A stretch of DNA of 64,000 nt from Salinarchaeum sp. IM2453 (GTDB taxonomy: Archaea > Halobacteriota > Halobacteria > Halobacteriales > Salinarchaeaceae), in NCBI RefSeq assembly GCF_019693215.1, contig NZ_CP081183.1:1243226-1307225 (forward strand). Direction: 5' to 3'. The notes under the pieces were generated by a model, which was not told the origin of the DNA, did no database searches, and worked only from the letters and a program-made list of their open reading frames with translations. The position numbers and the translations under genes are program-made. This document shows positions 33,401 through 38,746 of the stretch, piece by piece (positions within the stretch are counted from its first letter, which is position 1; each line of letters starts with the position of its first letter).

Positions 33401-33758
33401 ATATGGAAAATTACAGCTCGTTTGTCTTATTCACTCTGCACTCGAATTGTGTGTATAGTTGTCAGTTGTTCTACGACTCACAGCAAACTCGAGGAATACC
33501 AGATAAACTGTATGGTCTGTCTCGCAAGTTTGGCTGGTATCAATCCGTAGGACACTGATTTACTCGAATCGTCCGGTGACAAGTGTCGTCACCGGAAGAG
33601 ACCTCTAGCCCCGTCCCTGGTTTTCGTCGTTGCTTGTCGTTTGCTAGAACATACTTACAACTAACCGTACTACACTAGCATAACCGCACTAACATGATCT
33701 AGTTACTTCCGTGAGAGATTAACCCTTCTCAGGGGTGGAATTTGCCCCGGGGACATCT
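33401..33758. other. gene-poor start of probable accessory island
   Basis: No convincing gene. A 51-codon frame at 33403-33558 has no recognisable features. The stretch holds one arm of a 24-bp inverted repeat (33573-33596), an imperfect direct repeat TAACCG(T/C)ACTA near 33664-33692, and a 10-bp inverted repeat (33746-33755 with 33777-33786) across the stop of the next gene. Confidence 0.5.
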
Positions 33759-33785
33759 CTATCCGGTGACGACACTTGTCCCCGG
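33573..33785. repeat. 24-bp inverted repeat pair
   Basis: 33573-33596 (plus) and 33785-33762 (minus) agree at 23 of 24 positions, separated by 165 bases. Each copy is itself dyad-symmetric: copy one has the perfect 9-bp stem 33572-33580/33588-33596. The right copy overlaps the last codons of the coiled-coil gene. Possible roles are binding sites for that protein, a bidirectional terminator, or the ends of a miniature mobile element. Confidence 0.65.
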
Positions 33786-34646
33786 GCCAGACTGATTGTC
33801 TGTCGGAGATGATTCACCGGGAATCTCTGCATCATCCGGGATAATGATCCGTCGCTCTTTGTAGGTCAACCCATCCGTTCGACGCGTCTTTTTCTTCACC
33901 TGAATTCGATTTCGGGTCAGCATGTGCATCACGTCAATAATCCGTGACACTAACTTCTTCGCGTATTCCTGCGATACATCTGATCGCTCCCGGATGATCC
34001 ACATCTTGAGATCAGATGCAGACACATACTCACGAACGTTTTTACACCCACGTTTCCACGGACTATGTCGCTCTCCACGGGAAGCCCACAGTTCCGCTGC
34101 CAGTTCTTCAGCGTCCGAGTTTGTCGTGCGATTAAACGTATCCTCGTCCATTCGATTTAATTTCTGAATTGGTAGTAGATCCTCGTATGGAAGGGCATCA
34201 GGGCCATTCGCTTCGATATCATCTGGAAGGTCTTTGGCTTTATAGAAGACTTCACCGTCTCGCTTGATTGTTTTTAATTGGTCAGGTCCATCTGGCAGCA
34301 GATCCGGCATAACGTGGTCTTTCCGGAGTTTACTGCCCTTCTGGAGTTCTTTACTGTGCAGTTCACAGAGCATGTCTCGGTATTGGTCGATCCAATCTGT
34401 GACCCAACCTTCTTGCTTGGATTCAAGATCAATGATTGTCGAATTGAGCTCATCAACTTCTTCATTCGTTTCCTCAAGTTCATCGCGTAACTCGTCGTTT
34501 TCTTCGCGTAATTCCTCGTTGGCCTCTTTGAGTTCTGCAATCTCGTCTTTCAGCGAGTCAATTTGAGCGTCTTTGGCTTCAAGTTGATCAGATAGCTTGA
34601 TCACTTGCGATTCAAGGGAATCAACTCGTGAAACAAGATCACTCAT
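33759..34646 (-). CDS. coiled-coil protein with C-terminal DNA-binding-like domain, unrecognised
   Basis: 295 aa. Residues ~1-80 are an almost uninterrupted coiled coil (KDEIAELKEANEELREEND and so on). A middle region (100-170) follows, then a helical/winged-helix-like section around residues 195-260 (VSASDLKMWIIRERSDVSQE then a basic QVKKKTRR) and a flexible Ser/Thr/Pro tail. Layout resembles plasmid partition or replication accessory proteins. ATG 34646 preferred over GTG 34655. Flanked downstream by the 24-bp inverted repeats and upstream by a multibranched RNA-like structure. Function unknown. Confidence 0.7.
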   Translation of the reverse strand: MSDLVSRVDSLESQVIKLSDQLEAKDAQIDSLKDEIAELKEANEELREENDELRDELEETNEEVDELNSTIIDLESKQEGWVTDWIDQYRDMLCELHSKELQKGSKLRKDHVMPDLLPDGPDQLKTIKRDGEVFYKAKDLPDDIEANGPDALPYEDLLPIQKLNRMDEDTFNRTTNSDAEELAAELWASRGERHSPWKRGCKNVREYVSASDLKMWIIRERSDVSQEYAKKLVSRIIDVMHMLTRNRIQVKKKTRRTDGLTYKERRIIIPDDAEIPGESSPTDNQSGPGTSVVTG

Positions 34647-34704
34647 CACAACCACCTCGAATTCCCGAAAAATTTGGCTGCTGTGCTGGGTTGATGGCGA
34701 TGGT

Positions 34705-34880
34705 ATATGCTAGCGATACACCTGTTCGTGCGAGACTTTGATAGTCTCGTAGTGTATTTCTCTGCATGGCTTCCGTACTTGCCTACGGGAGCCGCCGCAG
34801 GTCGGTGCGACGACACCGGCCTGCAACTTCTCACTGATTCTGATCTACTATCAGAAGCAAGTGTCTCCCGATAGCTTAAT
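34705..34880 (+). ncRNA. candidate multibranched structured RNA
   Basis: Six helices can be drawn: closing stem 34709-34715/34869-34875 (one mismatch), 34716-34721/34752-34757, 34731-34737/34743-34749, 34768-34776/34785-34793, 34797-34807/34814-34824, and 34838-34844/34850-34856 with outer 34832-34835/34860-34863. Two stems contain a T-G pair that is a wobble only if the plus strand is the RNA; on the minus strand it would be an A-C mismatch. It lies in the 356-base spacer upstream of the coiled-coil gene, on the opposite strand. Not tRNA, RNase P or SRP RNA as far as I can tell. Confidence 0.5.
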
Positions 34881-34955
34881 TTCTATTTTCCGACAGTATA
34901 AAACTACCTGAAGCCGCCGGGAAGGTCACATATTATACTGACTGCGTAAGTGTCA

Positions 34956-35007
34956 TTACGGAAGATTCGAGACAAAAGCCTCGCTTCAGGGCGATAAGGG
35001 GGTCAAA
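34956..35007 (+). repeat. 55-bp relic repeat, copy B
   Basis: Homologous to 22941-22994 (identical first 16 bases) and ends in the right-end-like motif CTTCAGGGCGATAAGGGGGT. The final bases overlap the stop codon of the M42 peptidase, so an old insertion appears to have reached or remodelled that 3' end. It marks the right border of the 33.4-35.0 kb island. Confidence 0.55.
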
Positions 35008-38373: not shown

Positions 38374-38639
38374 GCTGTTGCCTCTTCGATCGCATCAGCC
38401 AGGTCAGCTGCATCGAATCCAATCAAATCGGCATCTACGCTGTTTATTTGCCTAATCAGTATATCCCTTTCAACATCTGTCCGATATCCACTGAGTACTG
38501 ATTCAAGTTGCTCTCTAGCTTCTGGTGGCTCCAAAAAGAAGTCTCCAGTGATCCTCACGTCTTTGATTTCTTCATCATATTTCACTGCAACTTCCAATAG
38601 TTTGCCTTCTGGTGGTTTTACTGAGGCCGTTGATTCCAT
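38370..38639 (-). CDS. lplB: lipoate-protein ligase accessory (C-terminal domain) subunit
   Basis: 89 aa. Begins with a strand-rich section KPPEGKLLEVAVKYDE..ITGDFFLEPPE and continues as a helical Lpl C-terminal-like domain ending DLADAIEEAT. In bipartite ligases this subunit is needed for lipoate adenylation by LplA. First gene of the two-gene operon. Confidence 0.85.
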   Translation of the reverse strand: MESTASVKPPEGKLLEVAVKYDEEIKDVRITGDFFLEPPEAREQLESVLSGYRTDVERDILIRQINSVDADLIGFDAADLADAIEEATA

Positions 38640-38746
38640 ATCACTCTATATATGCTTGAGAGATCCTTTTGCTTTCTGGTTATTTATTCCCATCAAGTAT
38701 ACTATAAATAACTATCCGATCAGCGGTTGCATACTCTGTTCATTTG

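Follow-up and report, generated by a model that had tools for sequence, protein, structure and literature searches.

A structured, probable leader RNA on a repeated haloarchaeal element belongs to a widespread family and may act as a translation switch

A repeated element with one conserved protein gene

The window examined here, a 64,000-nucleotide stretch of the Salinarchaeum sp. IM2453 genome, carries on its minus strand a dispersed element of about 1,341 bp (33572 to 34912), one of six full copies in this genome (2.66 Mb, one contig) that are 87-91% identical, 1341-1346 bp long and all intergenic; comparison of the six defines the 3′ end exactly and the 5′ end to within a few bases. The element consists of a structured stretch, one protein gene and a 3′ region that ends exactly at a hairpin-like inverted repeat. 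Flanks of the copies are unrelated, though two share about 45 bp upstream, and the G+C content of the copies is close to that of the surrounding DNA. Synonymous divergence between the six is 0.3-0.8 and the dN/dS of the protein 0.03-0.06, a sign of strong purifying selection, so the copies are old and their protein has stayed functional.

The gene (33759 to 34646, minus strand) encodes 295 residues, for which the predicted model (mean pLDDT 81) gives a coiled coil of about 100 residues followed by a winged-helix-like C-terminus. Foldseek returned no match at E<0.001, the coiled-coil matches in Pfam and the PDB were composition hits, and, with no family or fold match, the idea of an already described transposase, nuclease or replication protein was rejected. 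Of 392 haloarchaeal genomes, 100 encode relatives, in many cases several per genome and on both chromosomes and plasmids; a contig scan detected such relatives with an alignment query and not with a single-protein query, and in a phylum-wide sample the family was confined to the order of the window genome. Five loci (L120:3793-4821, L095, L096, L112 and L145) have, just before the coiled-coil gene, a protein that by eye resembles Mrr-type restriction endonucleases and has no Pfam match, which suggests that the operon carries exchangeable cargo.

Behind the gene, inverted repeats of 23-24 bp (33573-33785) flank a conserved region of about 165 bp. One arm (33762 to 33785), recognized from the repeat and from homologues, lies over the last codons of the gene, and the other (33573 to 33596), placed by comparison of copies and homologues, forms its precise 3′ terminus, that of the element. 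Nearly all loci of relatives of the protein end in the same inverted repeat about 170 nt past the protein match. As the pairs have no clear strand preference (64 versus 53), this repeat looks strand-neutral, as expected of a DNA site. It may be where the coiled-coil protein binds as well as where the element ends.

From the dispersed copies with sharp ends we infer that the element is, or formerly was, mobile. This mobility is supported by a second subfamily, whose copies share about 90-95% identity across 2.3 kb although they lie in different species and contexts, and which again stops at or near this inverted repeat. No target duplication was seen at the element copies, and an empty-site comparison of Natribaculum breve with N. 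longum was confounded by a separate rearrangement. Just outside the element, at 34956-35006, lies a repeat of about 50 bp (GGAAGATTCGAGRC..GCCTCG..) that recurs at five other sites in the genome; there is no TnpB gene here, and the repeat appears similar to the right ends of TnpB elements of the IS200/IS605 type in haloarchaea.

A conserved structured RNA

The structured stretch (34705-34880, 176 nt) folds well on either strand, with -72.8 kcal/mol (z -6.2, equalled by 0 of 200 dinucleotide shuffles) for the plus strand and -71.1 kcal/mol (z -6.3 against such shuffles) for the minus strand. A first-pass annotation, made from the letters of the window, had described here one closed multibranch structure with two long stems. 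Both stems were recovered at the sites it gave, as hairpins hp3 (34768-34793) and hp2 (34797-34824), whereas the outer closing helix is present in the centroid fold and absent from the minimum-free-energy structure. Read on the minus strand, to which we assign all of these features, the first of them is motif 1 (CGGGAG, 34865 to 34870), defined by alternative-helix analysis as able to pair with an arm of hp3, followed by hp1 (34838 to 34856), placed by fold and wobble analysis, and by hp2, placed by covariation. Within hp3, covariation and alternative pairing identify an arm, GCTCCCGTA (34784 to 34792), which can pair with only one of motif 1 and motif 2 at a time, and homologue alignment places motif 2 (TACGGAAGC, 34769 to 34777), the other hp3 arm, beside a start codon. 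This codon opens a 42-codon leader ORF (MQRNTLRDYQSLART..., 34639 to 34767) whose end overlaps the start of the coiled-coil gene and whose first codons contain hp4 (about 34729 to 34751, from covariation). The ORF is apparently a remnant of the ORF1 of relatives (M-x-x-D-D-S-R-G...); the six local copies give no sign of coding selection on it, with 72/48/76 differences by codon position.

A search with 4,227 Rfam models at the gathering threshold found no match in the window, in line with the earlier remark that the RNA resembles no familiar family, and three other members of the family described below gave no relevant match even at E<=5. Homologous leaders were aligned, 30 at first and then 44, which yielded hp1-hp4 with compensatory changes, and the 44-leader alignment was made into a covariance model, R1, which matches the window at 34718-34880 with an E-value of 3e-32; R1 E-values are rough, and the window sequence was part of the training set. 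With genomes sampled one per species, R1 had hits in 85 of the 195 haloarchaeal genomes searched (about 44%), with up to 11 copies of the RNA in each. Across 95 aligned copies (86 distinct sequences), both partners vary in 22 of 25 pairs, compared with 8.3 in shuffles; covariation cells number 126, where shuffles give 29.6 and slid versions 23 at most. As the structure guided this alignment (A5), its counts are biased in favour of that structure, and the unfitted alignment of the 44 leaders, with 53 covariation cells versus 22.8, is the safer count. Homologues show compensatory changes in the stems that the first-pass annotation had pointed to, hp2 and hp3, and the stretch is not the decayed coding sequence that would have refuted its proposal; its claim of a genuine, unannotated RNA is borne out, and this RNA is conserved and physically linked to the coiled-coil gene.

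Gene context and relatives in viruses

The leader RNA is a widespread haloarchaeal family, outside Rfam, that heads mobile-element and virus operons. Downstream of the 95 copies lie, in categories that overlap, the coiled-coil gene (35), a small ORF1 protein (33), a PadR-like protein (24), an SNJ2-type integrase (22) and a mini-TnpB (7). A divergent winged-helix regulator is encoded upstream of 84 of the 95, a frequent feature and not a family-defining one; the window copy is without it and has as its 5′ neighbour an M42 peptidase gene on the same strand. A seventh copy of the RNA in the window genome stands in front of a PadR-like gene.

This distribution bears on the proposal of the first-pass annotation that a separate plus-strand non-coding RNA acts together with the coiled-coil protein. 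RNA and protein do adjoin in all six copies of the element, but for 60 of the 95 RNA copies the 2.6 kb downstream contain no coiled-coil gene, and the RNA is also found in genomes that lack the gene altogether, which largely refutes such a pairing and leaves it very improbable.

Two further arrangements were seen among the loci. A TnpB-like protein of about 240 residues, with a Cas12f1-like zinc-binding domain and apparent RuvC motifs and without the N-terminal half, adjoins either the leader RNA, downstream of it, or the coiled-coil gene, directly before it (L110:4094-4816, L157:5167-5886, L285, L288 and others, with Natrialba magadii pNMAG01 among the genomes concerned). At L144:6644-8450, up to three leader RNA copies stand in tandem upstream of one coiled-coil gene, perhaps as nested or stacked elements.

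Two viruses carry the RNA as well, and a third has a weaker match. In the betapleolipovirus SNJ2, which was not in the training set, R1 matches positions 1797-1963 (E 2e-30); the match overlaps the start of orf3 and heads the orf3-orf2-int operon. Pleolipovirus Humcor2 has a match before its int operon (E 4e-21), and the tailed virus Humcor1 a weaker one (E 6e-5) right at the start of its PadR gene. According to passages of a review that make no mention of a leader RNA, SNJ2 orf1-3 form one operon, transcribed from two alternative start sites (PMC8371274); its direction is that of the leader. In the Halobacterium phage PhiH1, transcripts T1-T3 start at 38582, PadR at 38733 and the antisense transcript T_ant at 38732, with a divergent imm gene (sequence record; PMC6210493). 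Humcor1 is a possible intermediate between the family and the PhiH leader.

Strand and promoter

The first-pass annotation had taken T-G pairs in the two long stems as proof of a plus-strand RNA. Across homologues, in alignments fitted to neither strand, the balance of G-U against A-C at the pairs of hp2 and hp3 does lean towards the plus strand, which counts against the reading as a minus-strand leader, while hp1 wobbles lean towards the minus strand (53 versus 30). With the helices in disagreement, wobble asymmetry was rejected as a strand test and does not bear out the argument built on it. Folding energy was likewise dropped: the plus strand folds better in 39 of 44 cases, yet shuffled sequences give nearly the same bias from composition alone (plus-strand advantage -6.6 kcal/mol, versus -5.3 in shuffles).

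Signals outside the helices are one-sided. A TATA box (TTTTATA, 34898 to 34904, minus strand), at a position conserved in 43 homologues, would place the start of the transcript of leader and coiled-coil gene about 27 nt further on, at 34875 to 34877, as predicted from TATA spacing. Relative to motif 1, which lies at the 5′ end of the RNA, this gene-strand box lies at -34 to -30 in nearly all of the 43 loci; on the opposite strand, TATA-like words occur in 4 of the 43, with only 37% A+T. For the wider set, the counts are 72 of 95 on the gene strand versus 2 of 95 on the other. Moreover, a start codon directly follows hp3 in 88 of the 95 aligned copies, which puts hp4 within the first codons, and the window copy has both the gene-strand TATA box and the start codon right after hp3. 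Because of the one-sided TATA box and the start codon behind hp3, we read the RNA as an mRNA leader: most likely, the minus-strand message of the coiled-coil gene itself has the structured stretch as its 5′ leader. The same two signals, together with the direction of the SNJ2 operon, run counter to the separate plus-strand RNA, head-to-head with the gene, that had been proposed before.

A plus-strand antisense partner of the leader is conceivable, since the corresponding leader of phage PhiH has one. In its strongest form the acting molecule would be that antisense RNA, which, like PhiH T_ant, would fold and base-pair with the mRNA leader, leading to processing or a translation block, with variable loops giving copy specificity. 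PhiH1 has the same layout, with its antisense transcript from 38732 (PMC6210493); the hp2 and hp3 wobble pairs lean the right way, and the loops of hp1-hp3 differ strongly among the six local copies while the stems hold. Against this, a plus-strand promoter is not conserved (the 4 of 43 and 2 of 95 above), hp1 wobbles lean to the other strand, the PhiH leader is no significant R1 match (E 2.5), and the loop variation may be mere drift; we consider it possible, though unlikely, that the antisense RNA is the acting molecule.

The inverted sequences might instead be DNA sites and not RNA, either operators of the divergent winged-helix repressor or single-stranded DNA hairpins used in recombination. 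The motif TACGGAAGC / GCTCCCGTA does occur three times near the promoter, the elements appear mobile, and the inverted repeat at the 3′ end of this element, being strand-neutral, resembles a DNA site. However, the pairs vary freely on both sides without a fixed sequence, including those of hp4 inside coding sequence, the placement of the start codon relative to hp3 is kept, and no HUH or Y1 nuclease was recognized in the window element, all of which makes this explanation improbable.

A proposed two-state switch

We return to the minus-strand leader. The RNA structure, its family, the gene-strand promoter, the start-codon position, the operon context and a three-way covariation were computed, and we put at roughly two in three the probability that this is the leader of the mRNA of a small repeated element, a member of a widespread family, with a two-state translation switch. 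Transcription would be driven from the TATA box, in relatives probably under the control of the divergently encoded winged-helix repressor, and the leader would fold into hp1-hp4 around the first start codon. In one state, the arm GCUCCCGUA would pair with UACGGAAGC just before the AUG, forming hp3 and holding the start site in a helix; in the other, the arm would instead pair with a copy or variant of that motif at the very 5′ terminus, and hp3 would be opened. The choice of state would switch translation of the first ORF and of coupled downstream genes, which encode an integrase, PadR or mini-TnpB and, in the window copy, the DNA-binding-like coiled-coil protein. For the window copy, the overlap of the 42-codon ORF with the coiled-coil start may carry this control to the coiled-coil gene by translational coupling. 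Like the operation itself, the trigger is inferred, and it could be an antisense RNA, a protein or the ribosome.

The alternative helix between motif 1 and the arm is conserved in the 44 leaders, the two pairings have nearly equal predicted energies (-45.1 versus -44.1 kcal/mol, mean of 40), and the 5′ motif co-varies with the arm (6.05 versus 5.77 when permuted; maximum of 200 permutations 5.90), as in GCTCGCGTA with ACGCGAG and GCTCTCGTG with ACGAGAG. A second leader class (L204:1700-1860 and related loci), which belongs to the second subfamily and does not clearly resemble the first in sequence, is laid out alike, with a motif 1, a shared arm and a motif 2 next to an ATG (GAAGC/GCTTC/GAAGC and GGAC/GTCC/GGAC, noted by eye and uncounted). 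Together, the two conserved pairings, their near-equal energy, the covariation of arm and 5′ motif and the repeated layout support a two-state switch. Points against the reading are that in the window copy motif 1 pairs over only 6 bases, that the upstream repressor gene of relatives is missing there, and that the leader ORF of the local copies shows no coding selection. The two-state translation switch is our preferred, as yet unproven, mechanism, and the leader RNA probably controls whether the genes of mobile-element and virus operons are translated.

Many haloarchaeal mRNAs are leaderless, and to our knowledge structured regulatory leaders are scarcely known in this group. Leaders of one family in about 44% of the genomes sampled, heading virus and mobile-element operons that include one of the cultured virus SNJ2, would offer a directly testable RNA step in the control of archaeal lysogeny and integration and would link to the long-unexplored antisense RNA of PhiH; also exposed are a protein family that about one in four of the haloarchaeal genomes sampled encodes, and a repeated element without a recognized transposase. 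More speculatively, and in our judgment rather doubtful as a whole, one ancient RNA switch, possibly worked by antisense RNA, may govern the decision to integrate or stay silent in haloarchaeal pleolipoviruses, tailed viruses and integrated elements, a minimal element having coupled it to a coiled-coil winged-helix protein that mobilizes the DNA encoding it, in a way not yet described, via the 23-bp 3′ inverted repeats.

Comparison with known systems

Like insertion sequences and MITEs, the element has dispersed similar copies with sharp ends and unrelated flanks; unlike them, it has no recognized transposase (no significant Pfam, NCBIfam or PHROGs match outside the coiled coil), and all of its copies are intact and under purifying selection. 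The omegaRNA of IS200/IS605 TnpB elements lies at the 3′ end of tnpB on the same strand, whereas here the RNA lies 5′ of mini-TnpB (7 of 95 copies).

RNAI, CopA and RNA-OUT are examples of antisense control in plasmids and transposons. With bacterial two-state leaders, attenuators and antisense control, the haloarchaeal leader shares stem-loops around a start codon, predicted mutually exclusive helices and probable control of mobile-element genes. It differs in being archaeal and in its structure, and any ligand, antisense RNA or terminator would be hypothetical. Compared with ligand riboswitches, the genes downstream are those of mobile elements and not metabolic ones.

The early lytic T1 leader of PhiH, with its equivalents in PhiCh1 and BJ1, resembles the family in having a divergent small winged-helix immunity gene, a TATA box, a leader of about 150 nt and a PadR-like gene, whose N-terminus in PhiH (MPNHDSQGNKG) resembles that of the family (MSNDDSRGNES), the corresponding codons forming a hairpin as well. 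Its sequence and helices, however, are too diverged: the best R1 match in PhiH1 is correctly placed and oriented, with an E-value of 2.5 that is at chance level. The leader of the SNJ2 int operon is a clear family member that shares the divergent regulator and a PadR-like first gene, orf3; that operon carries an integrase, where the window element carries the coiled-coil protein instead.
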